Shown: positions 14,706 through 49,897 of the stretch, one piece after another
Layout of the letters: every line of letters begins with the position of its first letter
Numbering within the stretch: the first letter of the stretch is position 1
Source of the DNA: Oryzias latipes
Taxonomy: Eukaryota > Chordata > Actinopteri > Beloniformes > Adrianichthyidae
Direction of reading: 5' to 3'
Assembly: GCF_002234675.1 (NCBI RefSeq)
Contig: NC_019878.2
Span: forward strand, 4,776,688-4,840,687
Length of the DNA: 64,000 bases
The notes under the pieces: generated by a model
The model's input: only the letters and a program-made list of their open reading frames with translations
What the model was told of the DNA's origin: nothing
Database searches by the model: none
Position numbers and translations under genes: made by a program

Positions 14706-16171
14706 TCAAATGGTGTGCACGGGTCCCGGGTTCAGGTAAGCCTTTAAGGTGGCAATAAGCTGGCCTTCCTCTTCCAGCGTCACGTCCAGATACTCCTCTT
14801 CATGACGGGGGATGTCCTCCAGAACCTCGTTGACCAGCTCACTCTCCTCTGAAAGAACAAAAACAAAAATTTGACCATCACTGACAGACACGCTGCTCAG
14901 GTTCTGACAGAACTCCTCTGATGTTCCCCGTGTCCAGTTTGGGTTTCAGCTAAAAATCCATTGTGGAAGAAGTGGACAGACAAATGAGTCTGGCTCTACC
15001 TGGAGTGGTGGAGGAGGTGCTGGGCTCCTCTGACGATGGCGAGGAAAGAGAGGAAAGAGGCTGACTCAGCAGTTCTGGGGAGAGGACACCTTGGTTGTCC
15101 AGCAGCAGCTGAGTTGCGGCCTGGACGTCCCCCGCCGTCAACCTGAGAGCGGCTTCAGACGAGTCCCTCTGGAAGCCGAGGTAGAGCAGCTGACAAACAC
15201 ACAAACACACACTGAAACACAGTGACAGGCACAAACTCAAACACAATGACAGACACAAAAACACTGAAACACACGGAAGAGCAGGGCACACCTGATCAAT
15301 ATTCTCCAGACCGACTCCCTCCTCTAGGTTGTTGTTGGAGCTTTCAGGCTGACTGGAGTCCAGCAGGATCTGTAGACACACCAATGAGTTGGGAGGCGCA
15401 CGAGACAAAGAGTGCCCGTGCATGTGCACGGAGGGCTGCACGTGAGACTGACATTGTAGGCTCTGTCCACGTTCCCGTCAGCGAGGTGCAATGCTCTGGC
15501 CGCATCTCTCCTGGAGTATCCCAGCTCTGTCAGGGTGGAGATGGCGTCCATCCTCCTCTTCCTCTTCTTCCTCTCTCGTTGTTTTACTTCCTGCCGCTCC
15601 TGCAGGAAACCACACACTCAGACCAGGCGTTCTAATGATCTCAGAGCACAGGCGTGTGGGTGCACGTGTGCGGGACCTGTTGGCGGTTGCTGATGTACAA
15701 GGCAGCCTCCTGCAGCTCTCCGTGACACGCCCTCAGTCCAAGACGAGCTTCTCTCTCGGTGAACCCGAGCGCCATCAGCTGAGCCATCTTCTCTGAGTCC
15801 GGACACAGGCGGGCGTACAGGGACTCCACCTGACAGACAAGCAAACATTTGAGTGCTGCGTTGCATCAGAGCCGGTCAGGAGAGCTGCGGCGACCCACCT
15901 TGGACAGCTGCAGGCGCGCCTGGGCGTCGTTCCCCTCGATGTAGGACAGCAGGCTCTGCAGGAGGTACAGGCGCAGGAACAGAACGTCCTCTCGGCCAGA
16001 GTTTCCCTGAAACCAGTTGATGTGTGATTTATTGTTTGACAGCTGCATGCAGTTCTGCTGGAGCTGTTCGTCAGTGGCGGTCATCTGACGTTCATCTACT
16101 CGTGAAAACGATTAAGGAACCACTCCGATGAACAAGTTCTTGGGGCATTTTTCTAATGATGGAGAACAATG

Positions 16172-16257
<86 letters not shown>

Positions 16258-19200
16258 CATATATAAAGAAACCTACGATCAAAATTGTATTTGCTTTTTT
16301 TTTTATTTAAATTATAGTTAATAGGAGTGGACGAAGAAATGCCATTTGAAAAAAAAAACAGCCCAAAGTATTATAAATACGCTGGGCTGAACACAAGCTC
16401 CCAGCTCTGCTCCATTCTGATCCGTCTACTTGCAGACAAATAGATCCATGTATGCTGGGTTGCTGAAAAGGGGTAAAGGTGGTTGATTCCAGGGGCCCCA
16501 GACTGAGGGAGGGCCCACAGAGGCCCCTTAATGATGATGAAATAAGACAAGAAAAATTAATTCAAAACTGTATGGCTCGCCATTTTTGTTTCACCTTTAA
16601 TGTTAAGTTGGGGATGTGACAGACTGTAAGCTAATGGGAGAGCACATAAACAGAGAGCTCTCAACAACAGGGATGGGAAGGGGGAGGGTTGCTCCGTGCA
16701 CACAGTCCCGCCCACAGCTCAGAGATGAATTTCTAATGAACTCCAGCAGAAACTGCCCAAAAAAAAAAAAAAAAGTTTTTTTTTATTTGGCTAAAAATGG
16801 CATAATCATAATAAAAAGACCACTGGGAACACTTTTAAGAGATCAAAAAATGATTTAATTGGGACTTCAAAGTGTAAAAAGCTGAATCTGAGCATGAAAT
16901 AATATATATATCAAACAAAGTAGTTCATCTTAGCATGAAGACCTCACAGCTGCAAGAATAGCAGAATCTGTGAGATGGTTTATGTTTGGCAGCAGGTCAT
17001 GAAGAGAATGAACCTTCTTCATCTTTGAACCATCTCAGTGAAAGGTTACCTGCTCGCTGCTTCCATTCAGGCATATAATGAGAGAGAAACTTCTCACTGA
17101 AGCCTTTTCTCACCATCTGCCTGTGCGTGCACGTGAGTGCCCACGTGTCTCACCTGGATCCTGAGCAGCCTCTGCTGCTGCTCTCCGTAGCAGCGCAGGA
17201 AGCCGTCCTCGGCGCGCTGCAGCCGGCCGCGCCCATCCTCCAGGCAGCCTAGCGCCTCCAGAGCTCTGTAGCACCACACGATGTCCAGCTGCAGGACAGA
17301 GAAGTTGTCCACCGAGGCGAGCAGCGCAGAGCCGCACTTACTGCACAAACACACACAGACTCAATACAGGAGATGCTGCCGGAGGGGGAGGGGGGCGGAG
17401 GTGCAGCCGTGTACCTGAACTGCTCGTCAGCCTGCAGCAGGTGACACAGAGCGCTGTCGTACTGCTGCTTCTTCATGAGAGCACGGCCTCTCTCGTGGAG
17501 ACCCATGGCCAGGATCAGAGCCTGAACACACACATCCACACACACACATAAATCACGTGCAACTGAGAGTGTGACCTTTGACAAGTCATGACAACTGATC
17601 TGAGCAATCCTGTCCAGCAAATTTCTAATCAGCCAATCACATGGTAGCAACTCAGTGCGTTTAGGCTTGTAGACATGGTCAAGACGATTTCAAACCGAGC
17701 ATCAGAATGGAGAAGAAAGGTGATTGAAGTGACTTTGAAGCTGGCATGGTTGTTGGTGCCAGATGGGCCGGTCTGAGGATTTCTGAAACAGCTGATCTAC
17801 TGGGATTTTCACCCACAACCATCTCTAGGGTTTATAGAGAGTGGTCAGAAAAAGAGAAAATATCTAGTGAGTGGCAGCTCTGTGGGTGGAAATGCCAGGT
17901 TGATGTCAGAGGAAAATGACCAGACTGGTTCCAGCTGATAGAAAGACAACAGGAACTCAAAGGAACTCTGGTTCCAACTGTGGTCAGCAGAAGAGCATCT
18001 CTGAATCCACAACATGTCCAACCTGGAGATAGATGGACTACAGCAGCAGGAGACCACACAGGGTGTCACTCCTGTCAGGTAAGAACAAGAAACTGAGGCT
18101 ACAATTCACACAGACTCACCAAAACTGGACAATAGAGGATTGGAAAAACATCTTGTCTGATAAATCTCCATTTCTGCTGCAATATTTGGATAATTTGGCA
18201 TGAACAGCATAAAGCATGGATCAACGGTTCAGGCTGGAGGTGTGTCATGATGTGGGGATATTTTTTTGGAACACTTTGGGCTCCTGTACCAACTGAGCAT
18301 AGTTCCAACGCCACAGTCTACCTGAGTATTGTTACTGAGCATGTCCATCCCTTTCTGAACAGTGTATCCATCTTCTGATGGCTACTTCCAGCAGGATAAG
18401 GTGCCATGTCTTAAAGCTGGAATCATCTCAGACTGGTTTGTAGAACATGACAATGAGTTCACTGGACTCAATTGGCCTCCACACTCACCAGATCTTAGGA
18501 ATGGGAGATTGGGATCATGGATGTTTAGCCGACTAATCTGCAGCAACTGTGTGATGCTTTCATGTCAATATGGACCAAACTCTCTGAGGAATGTCTTCAG
18601 TATCTTGTTTAATCTCTGCCACCAAGGATTAAGGCAGTTCTGAAGGCAAGAGGGGTCCAACCCGGTACTAGCAAGGTGGAGCTGATACATTGAGTGTATA
18701 GATAGATAATATATATAGTAAACTTCAAGTATCCTGCCTTAGTATAGACCAAGCATAATTGTAGTAGACTTAGACGACGTTTTGCAAAGGTTTTTGAGAT
18801 TATCCAGAATTCAAACAAGGATGATGATCATAAAACACAATTGAGCTGCAAGATGAAAGACTGATGAACCAGGAGTGGAAAGAAAATCTAAAGAACAAAA
18901 CTTTAGGAAGAGGAGTGTCTGCAGGATCCAAACCTTCTTCTCGTGGTGTGGGATCTTTAGTGGGTTTCCCTTCTGGTCTGCAATCTCCAGGTACGGCACG
19001 GACTCTGGATCCTCGCTGCCATCTGGTTCAGACAGATCAGCCATAGAAGCCAAATATTTTTCGTCCCAATCTCAAATGTAAATGTCCAATTCCCAAAGGG
19101 AAGAGCACTGAGGCCTACCTCTCTCAGACAGGATCTGGAAGCCTTTCTGGGTCCTCTGAAGGCTTTCGTTTTGCTCCTTCTTCTCCTGCTCTTCCTTGTT

Positions 19201-20093
19201 CATCTGCTCAGAGTCGCTCACCTTCAGCACCATCACCTTACTGTGATTCTTCACACCCTGCTCATCCAGACGCTGATCTGAAAATGCAAGGTTCTTCTAC
19301 ATCAAAGCTAACTGGTATAATAACTTTTGCATCTGAGGGTCTCCAGGTTCCTCAATGTCTCTGGTTCCTGAAGGTCCCTGTTGGTTCCTACGGGTTTATA
19401 GTCTTACCTGCGCACAGAGTTCTGCCATTGAGGATCAGTTTGATGTGTTGAAGGTCAAACTCCTCCCTGATCCTGCACACAGACACAGACGTTAACCCCC
19501 CCCCTCTTCAAACGGGGGTTGACCTAACCTGTGATTTCTCCACCTCGGGTGTTTACCTCTGCACCAACTGCTGCAGCGGCACGTCCAGCCTCGTCTGCAG
19601 GAAGCTCCTCCCCTTCAGATTCTGGAAACAAACGGACATCACTGCTTCAGAGGACATCTGCAGACCCTCTCTGAAGCATAAAGGAGAAGTCATGAAGACC
19701 CACCTTCCTGCTGTCTCTGGGCAGCAGCAGTTCAAGCGTGGCTACGCTGGTCTCTCTAAACATCTTGTTTCTCTTTCCCCTCTTCACCGCCTGTACTCTG
19801 ATGGACTCTAGAGCGCCCCCTAACTCTGTGACTGACAGATGCAGCACAGGAGCGTAACGCTGTGCTAGCTCCTGCAGACAAAGGAACAGGATGTTAGAAC
19901 AAAAGAAAACAAACAGGTATTTTTTTTTTATTTCACAATAAAAGCTGCAGAGTTTCTGCTCTCGTGTGAGGCTGACCTGCATGTGCATCTGTCCCGGCTG
20001 GTCATCGTCATCGGTGTACGGAGGACTCCACAGCTGGACCTTCTCCTGCTTCAGCAAGTTCTTCAGCTTGGCCTCTATGTTCTGCTCTGCCAT
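14706..20093 (-). CDS. nub1: NEDD8 ultimate buster 1 (NUB1)
   Basis: An adaptor that binds NEDD8 and FAT10 and delivers them or their conjugates to the proteasome. Fourteen coding exons join in frame to 591 residues: 20093-19977, 19871-19704, 19621-19557, 19472-19408, 19277-19119, 19022-18934, 17521-17415, 17340-17154, 16006-15899, 15829-15677, 15599-15453, 15369-15292, 15189-15000 and 14848-14706. Visible features are an N-terminal coiled segment with LWSPPYTD, a ubiquitin-like fold at about residues 83-158, helical repeats around 225-355 (LQLDIVWCYRALE) and three UBA domains at about 370-401, 425-455 and 479-513 (each with an MGF/LGF/LGY-type loop). A basic patch (RERKKRKRR) lies between UBA1 and UBA2. 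An acidic tail holds EDIPRHEEEYLD, as in human NUB1. A Tc1 copy lies in intron 6 and a family-A repeat in intron 8. Confidence 0.96.
16105..16875 (+). repeat. family-A repeat copy with an AT microsatellite (nub1 intron 8)
   Basis: It begins TTAAGGAACCACTCCGAT and ends ATTGGGACTTC, i.e. the inverted ends of the family. It carries the CATTCTGAT and CAGTCCCGCCCAC landmarks in the same order as the copy at 2385-3175. Confidence 0.7.
16173..16255. repeat. (TA)n microsatellite, palindromic
   Basis: About 40 TA units flanked by GTCATATA and TATATGAC. The whole tract is self-complementary and can extrude as a cruciform. Confidence 0.95.
17590..18700 (+). mobile_element. degenerate Tc1-like transposon in nub1 intron 6
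   Basis: Frame-shifted translation gives the helix-turn-helix region (DFEAGMVVGARWAGLRISET, then FSPTTISRVYREWS) and, downstream, the catalytic region of a Tc1 transposase (YFQQDKVPCLKAG, then NWPPHSPDL). Several stops and shifts, and a missing DNPIE-type segment after SPDL, make it inactive. It lies antisense to nub1. Terminal inverted repeats were not resolved. Confidence 0.8.
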
Positions 20094-20261
20094 GGTCTGT
20101 GAAAACACCAGCAGGAAGTGGGACTGCGCACACAACTGTGAGGTTTCTGACCCGCTTCTTTCCTGATTTCACGTTAAGCAGAATCTGCGAAAGTTATAAG
20201 AGTTGATTTCTATCCTTAAAAATGCCATCCTTGGTGCTCACAGATCGGAGGGCACTAGTTT

Positions 20262-28649: not shown

Positions 28650-29400
28650 AACAAAACTAAAAATGTAAAATAGATGTGAAAAAACATTTTTTACTGAAAA
28701 AAGAAATAATGTAAGTTTTGAAAAATGAAAACTTGAAAAATATTTTAAAAATAAGAACTGCAGATTTCTTTTATAAGTATTTCCTGAATCTTCTACACTG
28801 TATTGTAAATGCGGTAGTATTATCGATGTATATATATTAGTTATTATACGTGCTTTGTGAGTGAGTGTATGACGCATTTTTCCCAACACTGCTATGCTTT
28901 TAGCTAGTTTAGCTCTGACCTGCTTTATTTGTGGTTTCCAGTTGATTTTGTCGTTCATAATTACTCCAAGGAACTCAATTTCAGTCAATCTTTCCAAAAC
29001 ATGGTTATCAATAACAACTTCTATTTCTAAATTTGTATGTGGGGATTTCCAAAAATCATGAATTTAGTTTTGTTAACATTGAGTGAGTTTACTTTTGTCG
29101 AACCATTGTTTTAGTCTCCCCGATTCTGTATTTACCATTTTTACTACGTTCCTGAGATTCCCCCCTATATATACTGCACTTGTTCTGTGGACATATAAAA
29201 AGTATTCAAGTGTATTTGACACCATGTGTATGTCATTAATATATAGGTTGAACAATGTTAGACCTATTATTGACCCTTGTGGTACTCCACATCTTACATT
29301 TAGCAGGGATGATTTACAATCTTCCAGTTGGACAAACTGCTGCCTGTTTTTAATCTGACTGTTTAACCATTTTAATGCCAGTCCTCGTATTCCATATCCT
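28650..29400 (-). mobile_element. L2-like LINE reverse transcriptase fragment, degenerate
   Basis: Minus-strand frames give LYINDIHMVSNTL, LKQWFDKSKL and, downstream, FLGVIMNDKINWKPQIKQVR and HLQYSVEDSGNTYK. These are the post-palm blocks of L2/CR1-type RT in the right order. The catalytic DD box is lost (YVHRTS replaces the FADD region), and the frame is broken. Confidence 0.8.
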
Positions 29401-29449
29401 TTTTGTTTACTAAAATATTATGATCAACGGGAAGGGGGTATAAGGGCAG

Positions 29450-30825: not shown

Positions 30826-31126
30826 CCAGATTTGAAATCCAAAATCTGACATTTTTTATAACGCTTCAACTGTGGATGTGTAAAAAACCATTGTAAGTTT
30901 AAACCTCTTTGTGCTTGACTTTATTATTATACAAGCCATTATACAAAAAATATTTTTCTTTTTTTTTTCTCACAAGGTAATGATAAAACACGTGGGGTCC
31001 TGAATTAAATGGTACGTTGCAAATTGACAACATTTTGCATGAAAAATAGAGCCCAATTACTGCTGAGGTGTTGAATAGTCTTTGTAGCTGAAGGTTTTCT
31101 TGAGATGATCATCAATAACTGGGTAT

Positions 31127-31345
31127 CTGATGATGTCATTGGTATCTAATGACACCTGGTGATGTCATCTGGTGTCATCTAATATGAGATAACACCAGAT
31201 ATTGTCATCTGATATGATATCAGATGACACCAGATGACATCACCAGGTGTAATTAGACACCAGATGATTTCATTTGGTGTGATTAGTGACTTCAAATGAT
31301 GTCAAAAAACAATTGTAAATCTGCCCTCTGAATCTATATATATGA
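31127..31345 (+). promoter_or_regulatory. CRE-like motif cluster and TATA box upstream of the intronless ORF
   Basis: TGATGTCAT-type sites occur near 31129, 31154, 31217 (as GATGACATCA) and 31297, embedded in short CAGATGACACCAG/CTGGTGTCATCTG direct and inverted repeats. TATATATA at about 31336-31343 follows, about 55 bp before the ATG at 31398. Sites are seen; promoter function is inferred from position. Confidence 0.5.
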
Positions 31346-31397
31346 CCCCTGGTTCTAAGATAAAACACTTTCAGGTGGCTTGGGTGAATCATAGAGA

Positions 31398-32771
31398 ATG
31401 TCGCGGCTTAGGACAAATGGGGATTCTTCAGAGAGTGCAAAGGATACTGCCTCAACGGGGAGCCCAGAATCAGTACAATTAAAACACAGAAAGAAAAAAG
31501 CAAAACTCCGAAAAAGGACTCACCAAATGGAAAATATAATAAGGACAAATGGTGATTCTTCGGAAAGTGCTAAGGATACTGATTCATTGGGGAGCCCAAA
31601 AACAGTGCGATCAAAACACAGAAAGGGAAAAGCAAAACGCAGGGAAAGGACTCACCAAACAGTAGAGGAATTCAAGGGCACAAATGAAGCTCTCATTAAG
31701 GAAACAGCCTTAGAAACCAAAAAAACAAACTTTGCTGTTGACAAAAATGAGGCTTCTTCAAAAAGCAGTCCAATGTACGATCAGACGCGTGACAAAGAAC
31801 TTCAGGAAATTAAAGAAGTCAACAAAGTTCTGATGGAAAAGCTGGTGAAGGATTTAATCATTTTAATTTTTAGGAAAAATAAAATGTCCTTCATCAAATC
31901 CACATTTGAAGCCCACCAGGAGTGGCTCTTTGGCAGGCTGTGGACAGAAGCAGAGGAGATACACTGTCACATCACTCCGGAAAAGTTCAACAACCTGCAT
32001 CACGTCCTCTTCTCAGACCTGTGCAATTTCCAAAGATTACAAGTTTCCATTGTAACTTCTTTAGAAATGAAAGATCCACTTTTTGGCAGTTTTATAGCGT
32101 TACGTTTTCGACGTTACATGATAAAGAGGCCAACTGTTTGGAAGAGGATCACCTGTAAAATGACAAAAACCAACAAGGTTGATCCACTGCAGAGGATTCC
32201 TTTACAAAGACACCCCAGTGAAAAAGTCACCTTGAAAAAAGTCCCAGTGAAAAATACAGTCAATCCACAAGATCAGAGTGTGGAAGACTTCCCCACTGTT
32301 GACTGTCTTCGTACAGTTGGTACACAGGTTGATGATAAGCAAACCCAAAATGAGGCGAAATGTCATCTCCTGCTGAACCAGTACCTGACAGAAATAATCC
32401 CTTGTGTGTTTTTCAGAGGACATACTGACTGTTCTTATGAAAACTTTACAAATTTGTACCAAAGACTACACAGCAAACTCTGGGAACTCTGTAAAAGTTA
32501 CGATTTTGAAACCAGAACTGCAAATATTGACAAGCTGTGTGCCAAAACAGTAAAGGAATTGAGGACAAGAGTCTGTCAACCACAATATATTTTACTAAAA
32601 GGATTAAATTTACAAGATCCAGTATCAGATGTTGTGGTTCTTCATGTCTTTGAGAAACACATGCTGAAGAAAAAATCCAAAGTGGCACAGTTCTTCAGCT
32701 CAGTTGCAAGGTTCATAGTCAGACCTTTCATCAAAACAAGGGTGTTTGACACAGAGGGTTTATTATTGTAA
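31398..32771 (+). CDS. intronless 457-residue protein of unknown function
   Basis: I do not recognise this protein. Residues 5-43 and 49-87 are a close tandem repeat starting RTNGDSSESAKDT and ending in a basic stretch (KHRKKKAKLRKR in the first, KHRKGKAKRRER in the second) that could be a nuclear signal. Residues about 90-148 are Lys/Glu-rich. Residues about 150-244 and 329-424 look like two diverged copies of one domain: each has an LW pair after a Phe-rich helix, then a hydrophobic stretch, (M/L)(K/Q)DP, and a final MIKR or MLKK. The tail is basic-hydrophobic (RFIVRPFIKTRVF). No membrane span, RT, transposase or protease motif is seen. The ORF is uninterrupted for 1374 bp in AT-rich DNA, with a TATA-like box upstream. 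Expression is unproven. It could be a retrogene, a lineage-specific gene or an accessory ORF of an unknown element. Confidence 0.65.
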   Translation: MSRLRTNGDSSESAKDTASTGSPESVQLKHRKKKAKLRKRTHQMENIIRTNGDSSESAKDTDSLGSPKTVRSKHRKGKAKRRERTHQTVEEFKGTNEALIKETALETKKTNFAVDKNEASSKSSPMYDQTRDKELQEIKEVNKVLMEKLVKDLIILIFRKNKMSFIKSTFEAHQEWLFGRLWTEAEEIHCHITPEKFNNLHHVLFSDLCNFQRLQVSIVTSLEMKDPLFGSFIALRFRRYMIKRPTVWKRITCKMTKTNKVDPLQRIPLQRHPSEKVTLKKVPVKNTVNPQDQSVEDFPTVDCLRTVGTQVDDKQTQNEAKCHLLLNQYLTEIIPCVFFRGHTDCSYENFTNLYQRLHSKLWELCKSYDFETRTANIDKLCAKTVKELRTRVCQPQYILLKGLNLQDPVSDVVVLHVFEKHMLKKKSKVAQFFSSVARFIVRPFIKTRVFDTEGLLL

Positions 32772-32789
32772 AAGAAAAAAAAAGCATTA

Positions 32790-32935
32790 GGAGTAGGACT
32801 TTAGATTTTAAAGAAGATTAGAGACGGACTTTAGATTTTAGATAAAAAATTAGTAGGACTTTAGATTTTTAATAAGATTATTAGTATATTATTAGTAGGA
32901 CTATAGATTTTTGATAAAAGATTGTGTATATAGAG
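32790..32935. repeat. short AT-rich tandem repeat after the intronless ORF
   Basis: Units around GGACTTTAGATTTT recur about four times with varying spacers. Confidence 0.75.
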
Positions 32936-32999
32936 AAAATTACTTTAAAGCAGATCCCACTGGAGCCAAAGTTTTTTTATTAGGTATATTTCCAAAAAT

Positions 33000-33245
33000 A
33001 CATAACTACGACAAAGGTGAGAGGCGTTTATAAATCTCAGCTTTAATCATGCAAAAATGTGGATTGCCAAATGCTGGAAAAACACTGAAAGTCCAAGCAT
33101 TACCCAATGGTTTCAACAAATGTTACCAGGAGTCCCTTTAGAAAGAATTACATATATCCCTAAATAACAAAGAAGAAAAATTTGAAAACATATGGCCACC
33201 TTTCATACATTTTGTAAAGAATATGGATCCTTTAGAATAGAATGT
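33000..33245 (+). mobile_element. L1-type LINE ORF2 C-terminal remnant
   Basis: Shifted frames give a C-terminal block like PFRKNYISLNNKEEKFENIW, then PPFIHF, as at the end of fish L1/Tx1-type ORF2 proteins. Short and broken. The TATTCAGTCTGCTG segment after it is not assigned. Confidence 0.45.
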
Positions 33246-34399
33246 TGATCATTTGCGTTTGGTTTGTATTCAGTCTGCTGTCAAGCTGGCTTTTCTGTTT
33301 TGAACTGAAGCTTGTAAAACAAAACCAAGTGACTAAAGATATCTTTAGTCATTGGCCAGGAATTCACAGGGCCGGTCAAAGTAACAACAGGCAGAAATTG
33401 TAGACGTCCTGCTTAACCCCCTTCGTGAACTGCCACCTTACCGTGGTGGAGGGGTTTGAGAGCTTGAGTTAACATTGTTAACATTGTCTTGATTTAAAAT
33501 GTACTGCATCAGTAGCAGATAAATTGCTGTTTGAAAAAGAGCTTATTTGTGACACTGAAATTACGCTGGAATTTTGTCCACGCATATATTCTAAATATTT
33601 ATATATAGACGTATATTCCCATTAAAAGCTGTTTGAATGAGCCTGCATTCATCTGACCACATTTTAAAGAGTTGCTGTGACTCATCTGTCCATGTGTCTG
33701 TCTATGTTCCTACTATTTTTACATCCCATAATGCCCAGCCACTGTGGCCATGTGGTTCATTCATTTCGTGCCAAGCACAGAGCCTATTCCGACTGAGAAA
33801 AACTCAGAGCAAACTAGTCAGATTGAAAACAAACCAAGACCACCTTAAAGACAGGTCAGAGAGCAGTTCCTGGTCCCAGATCAGGTTATCGGAGAAAAAA
33901 ACCTCTGGTTTGCCTTTAGCAAACCAAATGTGTCCAGCGGGGCTGGGTTGATGAAATCGATTAATCAATCTGACTCAATTCAGACTCTTTTAAGGAAACA
34001 TTTCTAAGCATTTGTGGTCCAAAGCACATTTTTTGCTCAAATCTTCTCTAATAAAGTGCAATGCTATAGTGTGACCTCCACCTAGTTGCCAAACTGAAAC
34101 GCTAGGAGAGGCGGAACATAATGATCTGCAGATTTCTATTGGAGCTTCTCATTTCAAAGAACCATGTAACACTGTTTTATGTTGAAAATCGGATTGGTTT
34201 ATTTTTTCACAAATACATTTTACAGTATGTGAATTATCAGGTTAATATGATTCAAACTTATTGTATTTCTATATAAATATGTTGAAATTTGCAAATAGTA
34301 TACATTCAAAATCTGACTGAATCAAGTGATTCAAAGAAATGGTGAATGGAATTGATTCTGAAAATTGTTGGTGATACCTAACCCTAGTTTCCAGTCCGT

Positions 34400-35589: not shown

Positions 35590-37052
35590 GTTTAGTTAAA
35601 TGTTGCTAAAGACAATTTCCAATTTTCCAACTTCCAGTTTGCAGAGCAGTGTTTTCCGGCTGCACAACCTGCAGGTTAGCACATTTCTCATTGAACAAGG
35701 CACGCCCATGAGCGTTTGTAAGTTTCACGCGATCTTTCTCCTGTTGGAGTCTTAATCTAAGGTTAGAATGATCCATTCCAAGAACAATGTTTTGCTTCAA
35801 TTTATCTTAGTATTCAATTTTTGTACTTAAGTACTCAACCTCTAGTTGATTCACATCAAGATACTTTTCCTGAAGCTGTTTAATTTCTTGCTTGATCTCT
35901 TGATTTTGCTTTTCCAAATTGACAATGTTTTCAGCTGTTTTGATGTATCCTGTTTCTAATAGATGATATTGTTTCAGTCATGTAATCATGTCAACGGGCT
36001 GCACGGTGGTGCAGTGGTTAGCGCTCTTGCCTCAAAGCAAGAAGGTCCCCGGTTCAAGTCCCGGCTGGGGGACCTGAAACAGAACACTCCGGGGTCTCTG
36101 GCTTCCTCCCACCGTCTAAATGTCTGCTTCATAGGTCAATTGGTTAATCTAAATTGTCCCTAGGTGTGAATGTGAGAGTGCATGGGTGTGTGATTGAGGA
36201 CTTTCTACCCTGCGACACACTGGTAAACTGTCCAGGGTGTTCCCTGCCTTCGCCCACAAGTTGCCGGGATAGGCTCCAGCAGCCCTGTGACCCTGAAAGG
36301 GAAAAAAACGGAATAGAAAATGTAAATGAATGAATGATAATCATGTCATTATAATGCTCCACCCAAGGTTTTGCCTGTTCCTGCTGCAGTCTTAGATGGT
36401 AAATTTGCTCCTGAATGTTCAGAGATTAAGTGTTAGCCACAACAGTTGCATAGCGGAGTCTGTTTTTCCTCCTCTTCCCCAGCTCTTCCAGCTGAGTTTG
36501 CAAAGCAGCGTTTTCGGCAGCGTTTTCCTGCTGAACAACCTGTAGGTGAGCACATTGTACAAGAGTACAATGAGAAAGGCCCGAGATCCACCTTTGTCTT
36601 TTGGACCCTCTTAATCTGTTTTTTTAGGTCGAGGTTTTTCTGGGTAAGAGCTTCAACGTCAAACTTTGCTTGGGTGTATGTGTTTGACAAAACTTCAGGA
36701 TCCCAAACTCTGATTTGCAGGTCCTCAAGTGTCACCTCTAGACTTCGGTTGCTTTCAGACAATTCATCGATTTTCTGCTGCTTTTTGTTGCAACATTCTT
36801 CAAGAGATCTTTGTTCTTTGAGTTTTTTCCTGGCGCGTTCCAAATATTTCTCCAATGTTTTGTTAAGTGTAGTAGCATTTTTTTCACTTTCTTAAGTGCT
36901 GAGTAAATTTCCTGCAGATCTTTCTTGCTTTCCAGCTCCTTATTAATGGCTTTAAGTCGGTTGGCCAGCAAGGCATTCTGCTTAAGAGTCTTGTCAATGT
37001 CCGAAAGACTCGCTTTGACATCCCAGCAACTCACATTTCTAAGCAGAAACAT
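35590..37052 (-). pseudogene. intronless coiled-coil gene, disrupted
   Basis: A minus-strand ATG at 37052 opens a protein rich in Leu/Lys/Glu heptads (ASLSDIDKTLKQNALLANRL). It continues after one frameshift near 36860-36880 (ERARKKLKEQRSLEECCNKK) and another near 36570-36590 (AHLQVVQQENAAENAALQTQ). An in-frame TAA lies at about 36427-36429, then more coil (IQEQIYHLRLQQEQ), then a SINE at 35994-36337, then more coil (NIVNLEKQNQEIKQEIKQ) with further stops. The last part (EKCANLQVVQPENTALQT) repeats the 36500-36560 block, so the gene contained an internal duplication or two copies are fused end to end. No introns are seen. Family not recognised. It is not intact in this sequence. Confidence 0.7.
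35994..36337 (+). mobile_element. tRNA-headed SINE with target-site duplication
   Basis: Head GGTGGTGCAGTGGTTAGCGC (A-box like) and GGTTCAAGTCCCGGC (B-box like). The body carries CCTCCCACCGTCT and GTGACCCTGAAAGGG. It is flanked by the 11-bp direct repeat TAATCATGTCA at 35983-35993 and 36338-36348. It splits the coiled-coil pseudogene. This is the best-preserved member of the family in the window. Confidence 0.9.
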
Positions 37053-37196
37053 TTTGAATCCAAGTTTGTCAAACTCGTATACACTGATGGTGTAAAGAGT
37101 CCGGGACTTGAAAGGATTTTCAACCTATCGGCGTCAAAAGTCAGGTGTACTCTGGGTAAATAACTCAGGGGTAAACCTGACTATCTCAAACTCTGG

Positions 37197-37370
37197 GGTA
37201 TAAAGGAAAAAAATAACTTTATGACATCAAATGTGATTTGATGACATCATTGACATGGGTGGGACTACATGTGATGCTGTGACATCATTATGATGGATAG
37301 GACTACGTGTTATAGTATGACATCATTGTGATGGACATGACTACACGTGATGCTATGACATCTTTATGGT
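37197..37370 (-). promoter_or_regulatory. tandem CRE-like repeat and TATA-like box upstream of the coiled-coil pseudogene
   Basis: Between about 37236 and 37370 a unit of roughly 40 bp (TGACATCATTNTGATGGA followed by TAGGACTACGTG) occurs four times, with two further ATGACATCA sites at 37219-37245. On the minus strand this reads TGATGTCA. TTTATACCCC (minus strand) lies at about 37197-37206, 145 bp before the ATG. Confidence 0.5.
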
Positions 37371-37874: not shown

Positions 37875-39352
37875 CAACTGGGGCCTGTTTCAGAAAGGAG
37901 GTTCAACCAACTCTGAGGTTAAACTTGAACTCTGAGTTGGTCAATCGAGAGATTAACAACTCTGAGTTTTCTGTTTTAGAGAAGCTGATCGGAGTTAGGT
38001 CAATCAACTCTGAGTGGACTGATTCGGAGTTAAGCGTGAGCACCGCGACTATAAGAAGCCATTATCAATGGAGCGCAGATATTACGAGTCACCATGGCAA
38101 CCGTGGAAAAGAAGAGGTCTGCGTATTTTTCGCCAGCTGAACTTGACGTGCTGCTGCAGAGTTACAGTGAATATGAGCACATATTATTCCAGAAGAAAAG
38201 CAACACCGCTGCATCTGCAAAACAGAGACAGTTAGTGTGGGAAAACATAGCTGCTCAAGTTAATGCGTAAGTTTGCATTTAAATCATTGTTAAAAAATAT
38301 TGGCTGTAATAACTTTTTAAATAGCGTAAGGAGTGAAATAAAAAATGGCGATGTTCAGGTGTACTTTTGAAGTGTTATTCCTGGTGTAAATGCATGAAAT
38401 GCTGCATAGTGTACAGAACCAATCTGGGGGAAAAATGCATTTAACGTCGGTAATGTTTAGAGGACTTTTTTGTTAACCTTCCCCTCTTGCAAACTTTGGT
38501 CAGTTTAATATTAATACATGCAATTGTGTTTTTAAAAGTGAGCTTTTGTCTACCCTTGAATTGATCAAGTGGTATAGGTTTATATGGGATTAAGAAATTA
38601 AGCAGTACTAGCAAATTGTGTTTCCAAAAAGTAATTGTTACATTAATCTAATTCAATGTCCCTGGTTTCATTTTCATGTAGATGCAATCCTGCAGGAATT
38701 AAAAGAACATGGCAGCAACTAAAAATGAAGTATAAAAACATAATTCAATCAGGTCAAATTTGAGCATGTCATGGATGTAGGCTTTGTTGACAATATTTGA
38801 CATATGAAACATCTACATAGCAATAGATATCTAATGTTGTTTTCATTGTATATATGTAATTGACTGCAACGAAAAACGGTAACGCTCAAACAAAAACGTA
38901 TGGGGAAATGACAGAAAATCGAGTCTAGGTCTCAAAATCCTCGCACGACGTAAATGTAATTCTCTACGAATTAATACAGCCTCCTCGTCTATTGGGTCCT
39001 CCAAAAAAGGACAAGCCATTCTTGTCACTTGTCTCTGTGTGACGGAAATTTGGGCAATGAAGGTTAAAGCAAAAAATACCGCTTCGTCTTTAAAAAGGGG
39101 AGGGGACCGGCAGAAACCATGAGTTTAGAGAATAAAACCTGCTCCCGACCAGGTTAGGTTCACAGCGTAAGTAACCATGGACACTGACTCCGAGTATACG
39201 TTACCTCTCTTTCAGAAACGGGTTTGACTTACTCTGCTTTCTCTGGTTTAACAAACCTCCCATTCTGAAACGGAAAACCCAGGGTTTCCCTGATTTCAGG
39301 GTTAACCCACTCAGAGTTTACACTTAACCTCCTTTCTGAAACAGGCCCCAGG
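37875..39352 (+). mobile_element. Harbinger/PIF-type element with Myb-like gene remnant
   Basis: Terminal inverted repeats CTGGGGCCTGTTTCAGAAAG (left) and its inverse CTTTCTGAAACAGGCCCCAG (right) extend about 26 bp. Inside, an ATG at about 38093 encodes EKKRSAYFSPAELDVLLQSY and, after an intron-like gap with a donor near 38268, TWQQLKMKYKNI. These are the two halves of the Myb/SANT-like protein that accompanies Harbinger transposases. No DDE transposase is present, so the element is internally deleted. A target-site duplication is not evident. Confidence 0.8.

Positions 39353-41895: not shown

Positions 41896-49897
<8,002 letters not shown>

Follow-up and report, generated by a model that had tools for sequence, protein, structure and literature searches.

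The window, by which we mean the whole 64,000-nucleotide stretch of the Oryzias latipes genome that was analysed (C20:4776688-4840687), contains an intact single-exon gene preceded by an array of CREB/ATF-Jun-type sites and, farther downstream, the broken frame of a second gene type with a similar array of its own. The features to which this account refers are, by their position in the window:

31131..31304, unstranded: four CREB/ATF-Jun-type sites TGATGTCA/TGACATCA (starts at 31131, 31160, 31235 and 31297), upstream of the window ORF
31335..31341, plus strand: TATA-like box, then GACCCC, from reading of the sequence
31398..32771, plus strand: window ORF, an intact single-exon CDS of 457 aa with a predicted pI of 9.7
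31410..31659, plus strand: tandem 132-nt (44-codon) repeat encoding a basic, Ser/Thr-rich N-terminus, from repeat comparison
31809..32147, plus strand: domain copy D1 (residues 138-250), for which a low-confidence model is helical
32349..32735, plus strand: domain copy D2, residues 318-446
35609..37124, minus strand: broken coiled-coil frame, a degraded copy from another tandem family of single-exon genes, from genome search
37222..37325, unstranded: four arrayed TGATGTCA sites immediately 5' of the broken coiled-coil frame, from site count

The window ORF starts with an ATG and ends with a TAA. An in-frame TAG lies at 31392-31394, two codons 5' of the ATG, and the 458 stop-free codons of the ORF constitute the longest such run in the whole window. 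In 100 simulated 64-kb sequences of the local dinucleotide composition the longest stop-free run had a mean of 169 and a maximum of 271 codons, so that the length of the ORF greatly exceeds the chance expectation. Our re-derivation thus agrees with the first-pass annotation, which had described an intact, intronless coding frame of 457 codons at this position. Codon periodicity gives the frame weak support: its period-3 power is matched or passed in six of 627 sliding windows (two overlapping the ORF and four outside it), and the value is 2.57 for the whole ORF and 3.24 for the part after the repeats, as compared to 3.00 in the best of 500 base shuffles.

The tandem N-terminal repeat, noted earlier with a period of 44 residues, was recovered as a 132-nt unit, the copies of which are 84% identical over 118 nt and differ mostly at silent sites (dS 0.39, dN 0.13 over 39 codons). 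Two diverged copies of a domain had also been proposed, and D1 and D2 indeed represent a true internal duplication of a domain of about 105 residues. Their Smith-Waterman score in the window protein alone is 47, which is reached by 8 of 1000 shuffles and, under three other shuffle schemes, by 20-35 of 2000, whereas profiles of six members each align by hhalign over 105 columns with a probability of 97.9% and an E of 4e-13. The case for duplication, weak from the window sequence alone, therefore becomes clear once the paralogues described below are added. The LW, K/Q-DP and M(I/L)K(R/K) motifs that the annotation had described are all present; across six representatives of the family the LW in D1 is kept by all but one, and the DP motif is absent from the copies on chromosomes C21 and C22. 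The members on these two chromosomes possess an additional N-terminal region (D0), which was considered as a further copy of D2 and ruled out by an hhalign probability of 8.6%. AlphaFold models of the protein are poor (mean pLDDT 39.8 and 53.7 in two runs); as predicted, it is probably mostly helical with a basic N-terminus.

The annotators had recognised no family, and systematic searches gave the same picture. With Pfam there was no family above the gathering cut-off for the window ORF (best E 0.049), for D2 alone (best E 0.0095, to ASA5, at 16.5 bits against a cut-off of 27) or for ten of the 17 members of the family (best E 0.043). Scans with PHROGs and NCBIfam recovered nothing above threshold, a sequence search of the PDB gave no match below E 0.08, and nothing was found for the window protein in viral, prokaryote, phage and plasmid collections, the phages and plasmids being searched by tblastn. 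Foldseek with the low-confidence D2 model yielded best E values of 3.8 (PDB) and 1.4 (viral), and these matches were treated as noise.

The window gene is one of a family, contrary to the single-copy orphan that the first-pass annotation implied. With the window protein as query, the genome (734,051,031 bases in 25 contigs) yielded 18 matches, all free of stops over the aligned part; 17 of these lie in frames of 398-529 codons, namely the window ORF and 16 further full open paralogues, and one lies in an 89-codon frame. Searches with two other members of the family brought back the same 17, and one of the two additionally matched a 50-residue scrap with a stop; all these counts are lower bounds. 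The 17 intact genes, encoding proteins of 355-529 aa from the first Met, are spread over four chromosomes:

C20, 31398..32771 of the window: window gene, one copy
C20, 14.56-14.59 Mb: cluster of five copies
C22, 13.67-13.71 Mb: cluster of four copies
C22, 12.71 Mb: solo gene, one copy
C21, 5.91-6.03 Mb: cluster of three copies
C13, 22.39-22.41 Mb: cluster of three copies

Within each cluster the proteins are 99-100% identical. The window protein is 57% identical to those of the C20 cluster and 23-25% identical to the remaining members, the C21 and C22 clusters are 85% alike, and the solo C22 gene is 47-48% identical to both. The match in the 89-codon frame lies at the edge of the C20 cluster (L026, C20:14594268-14598465) and spans the N-terminal part alone; when a member of that cluster is used as tblastn query, a stop appears in it, so that L026 is a truncated copy and a sign of birth-and-death evolution.

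With paralogues of the same genome standing in for homologues, comparison of the window gene with the C20 cluster gave a dS of 1.33, a dN of 0.345 and a dN/dS of 0.26 (0.17-0.36 in 300 bootstraps). The D2 region (residues 318-457) is the most constrained part, with a dN/dS of 0.15, followed by the linker (0.30) and D1 (0.32), and the silent sites of the N-terminal part are saturated, which allows no dN/dS score there. The C21 and C22 clusters differ with a dN/dS of 0.49 (0.35-0.69), and the solo C22 gene differs from both with a dN/dS of 0.29-0.32 at a dS of 1.3-1.4. These values fit purifying selection on an old duplicate, for which a dS near saturation gives no date. The annotation had offered selection or recent origin as explanations for the survival of the frame; the dN/dS of 0.26 and the 17 full open copies speak for selection, and the dS of 1.33 to the nearest cluster is at odds with a recent origin. 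The sole blastn alignment between the window locus and one member of the C20 cluster (L013) begins inside the CDS and extends to 6 nt past the stop, and in the three within-cluster pairs compared the flanking DNA is shared as well.

The surroundings of the window ORF include apparent remains of mobile elements. A reverse-transcriptase-like relic was recognised by eye at 28650-29417 on the minus strand, where Pfam has no match at E<=0.01, and a stop-broken piece resembling the C-terminal end of the second ORF of an L1/Tx1-like LINE, likewise seen by eye, lies directly downstream of the window ORF at 32940-33240 on the plus strand. Between the stop codon and this piece is a short AT-rich tandem repeat of AGGACTTTAGATTTT-like units (32773-32931), and a comparable AGTAGGA stretch follows the stop codon in the genes of the C20 cluster. 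Of the two broken neighbours of the ORF to which the annotation pointed, the coiled-coil frame is real, at 35609-37124, and the reverse-transcriptase-like relic rests on recognition by eye.

The presence of LINE-type relics, by eye, on both sides of the ORF raises the question of whether the ORF itself is encoded by a transposable element, as a LINE ORF1-like protein, a half-LINE or an accessory protein of a DNA transposon. The annotation had named a match to such an ORF as refuting its proposal; no transposon family scored above cut-off, and the nearest approach, to an IS21 transposase in NCBIfam (E 0.018), is at chance level with 14.6 bits against a cut-off of 160. The copies lie in a few tandem clusters rather than being dispersed, all 17 full copies are open, the flanks of the window gene (30900-31400 and 32765-33060) have no exact word of 9-16 nt in common, and members of a cluster share flanking DNA in the pairs compared. 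We hence regard a transposon-encoded ORF as exceedingly improbable, while a distant origin of the two-domain family from a transposable element may be envisaged. The absence of introns from the ORF and the A-rich run that begins directly 3' of its stop codon are what a retrocopy of an intron-containing gene might present. However, the protein searches of the genome uncovered no set of short exon-like matches, only long frames and the two scraps, and every cluster has its own upstream array, which makes a retrocopy very improbable too. What these observations favor is a working host gene.

The four sites before the window ORF lie partly within a 51-nt inverted repeat (31140-31262). Sites of the form TGATGTCA/TGACATCA occur within 450 bp of the start in all 17 genes and all six lineages, at 2-6 per gene: four in the window gene; five, four, four, four and six in the C20 cluster; two in each gene of the C22 cluster; six in the solo C22 gene; and, with the start taken as the ATG common to sister copies, a choice that raised some of the counts, four, four and five on C21 and three, four and six on C13. 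Counted instead from the first ATG of each frame, there are 2-7 sites within 600 bp. Site counts within a lineage are non-independent because of tandem duplication. The background density is 0.049 per 450 bp (22 sites in 202,231 bp), as measured in the cluster flanks and the window minus 30901-33500, that is, in the same loci and not in the genome at large. The motif was first noticed by eye and counted afterwards; a subsequent count of all 8-mers, made without choosing, ranked ATGATGTC, ATGACATC and TGACATCA first, and these are the only words found in all six lineages and all 17 genes. In 46 sites pooled from nine loci an A precedes the site in 34 and a T follows it in 28, corresponding to ATGATGTCAT. 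The canonical TGACGTCA is absent from the upstream stretches of the 17 genes, and the 2 kb preceding the window ORF lack an AP-1 site (TGASTCA). By its letters, TGATGTCA is a CpG-free variant of the CRE, in which TG/CA replaces the central CG. The array is of CREB/ATF-Jun type by sequence, and we infer the binding factor and the cell type.

Between the array and the start there is a TATA-like box in nine of the 11 genes examined, 46-101 nt before the start; none was seen in the other two (L023 and L025). The sequence at the box is CTATATATATGACCCC in the window gene and TTTCTATATAGACCCC on C21, and the promoter module can be written as the pattern TGATGTCA/TGACATCA N{8,38} ATAGACCCC. If transcription of the window gene begins about 30 nt downstream of its TATA-like box, no ATG intervenes before the ORF; a non-coding exon may also lie upstream.

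The same kind of array accompanies the coiled-coil family. A 100-residue piece of the broken coiled-coil frame has at least 28 matching places, itself included, among the best 150 of 391 candidates that were scored. The matches listed comprise eight open frames of 562 aa on C13 (24.91-24.99 Mb) and long open frames on C12, C10, C19, C1 and C14, together with others containing stops; the weaker among them could be unrelated, given how readily coiled coils align by chance. Searches with the two-domain protein and with the coiled-coil piece returned no locus of the other family, the latter again in the best 150 of 391 scored. Arrays are present at all seven intact coiled-coil loci examined, five of which are near-identical. 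In these five genes on C13, 4-9 sites precede the start and are followed by CCTTAAATAGACCCC, a sequence resembling CTATATATATGACCCC of the window gene and TTTCTATATAGACCCC of C21. At 14.30 Mb on C12 five sites are followed by CCTTATAGGACCC, and a weak relative at 1.74 Mb on the same chromosome (E 2.1e-5) has eight sites but no evident TATA box of this form. For a C13 member of this second family, too, Pfam has no family above cut-off.

It is conceivable that the TGATGTCA arrays are spreading minisatellites without a regulatory role, in that the number of sites changes from one sister copy to the next and the sites are arranged as inverted and tandem repeats. Yet each of the six lineages, and a second gene type as well, has them directly before the start. 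Furthermore, 35 of 3899 overlapping background windows of 457 bp hold at least two sites and eight hold at least three, and all eight fall at one place, the coiled-coil array at 37222-37325; the single such cluster in 202 kb of background is thus likewise 5' of a gene frame. We consider minisatellites without a role improbable, and favor arrays that act in the promoters of these genes. In addition, two TGATGTCA-type sites were seen 11 bp apart at 46423 and 46434 of the window.

A parallel for such an element is available in a virus. In the BZLF1 promoter of EBV, ATF2 has TGACATCA as its documented site, and the ZII element of that promoter is said to bind CREB, XBP-1, ATF, C/EBP and AP-1 proteins (PMC3944714). 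The likeness lies in the identical 8-mer TGACATCA and in the shortness of the promoter, which has a TATA box; the difference is that one such site is described there, as against an array of 2-6 predicted sites here (PMC3944714). Besides this paper, the literature on the motif or on intronless repeated fish families offered nothing usable, by which we claim no absence.

The tandem, intronless organization invites comparison with the virus-induced Gig1-like family of fish (PANTHER PTHR38706), whose members are virus- or interferon-responsive effectors. The gig1-like genes of salmon form three tandem copies with the entire CDS in one exon and a PTHR38706 domain (PMC12247413), and the two-domain family likewise occurs in tandem copies with its entire CDS in one exon. 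The apparent resemblance is one of tandem fish genes with a one-exon CDS and no reported domain other than PTHR38706 (PMC12247413). However, the salmon proteins, at 222-240 aa against 355-529 aa here, have roughly half the length, and Gig1-like genes are known to possess a small first exon of their own, apart from the coding one (PMC12247413). Moreover, a search of the 2 kb 5' of the window ORF found no consensus for ISRE, GAS or NF-kB. In the searched part of another paper (PMC13030082) the term Gig1 does not occur. We consider membership of the window ORF in a Gig1-like family unlikely.

The near-complete identity within clusters, the open frames, the D1-D2 duplication, the purifying selection and the arrays together point to a working multi-copy gene family. 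Very probably the window ORF is a functional host gene without introns and belongs to a set of 17 intact two-domain members, which would be amplified for dosage and under the control of a bZIP array that drives burst expression. The TATA box, the short leader, the intron-free coding part and the near-identical tandem copies suggest fast, high-dosage expression. In the proposed scheme CREB/ATF-Jun bZIP dimers would bind the TGATGTCA/TGACATCA array, and the bound array, the TATA box and an intron-free transcript would permit a fast and strong burst of expression, with near-identical tandem copies raising dosage rather than diversity. The protein could act as an intracellular adaptor by means of its paired helical domains, a guess that is weak because the structure models are poor. 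The copies show homogenisation and constraint instead of diversification, which weakly favors expression in the germline or early embryo, as opposed to induction by stress or in immunity.

The same regulon might include the coiled-coil families, since they have this array too. Mammals have tandem, burst-expressed gene families of the early embryo or germline, of the Zscan4, Pramef and Obox type, and the present families can be likened to them in their many near-identical copies and in a putative promoter logic common to unrelated genes; to our knowledge, TGATGTCA arrays are no part of those programmes. This raises the tentative possibility, which we rate as somewhat less than even, that TGATGTCA arrays beside TATA promoters switch on, as one regulon, a number of intronless families that are unrelated to each other and amplified in tandem, comprising the two-domain and coiled-coil families and perhaps more, in the manner of mammalian early-embryo or germline burst programmes. 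The proteins of the families in question have so far no match above cut-off in Pfam. One promoter signature, searchable across a whole genome, would then tie together uncharacterised single-exon genes that might readily be set aside as pseudogenes or as debris of transposons. Should the arrays prove to label genes expressed together, both the regulator of this set, a CREB/ATF-Jun dimer, and its targets would be named, and the functions of several unnamed protein families could be tested jointly.

Of the remainder of the window, both 4.9-kb flanks were surveyed with Pfam in six frames and three 9.9-kb stretches in three frames of one strand; searches for tRNA and Rfam families gave no match in the window. 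On the minus strand at 14950-20168 are the exons of a gene with Ubiquitin_5 and several UBA matches, which we take to be NUB1-like; this gene and the style of the repeats would fit a bony fish. On the plus strand at 38055-38267 is a Myb/SANT-like DNA-binding piece (PF13873, E 2.6e-8), possibly a fragment of a transposon-derived gene.
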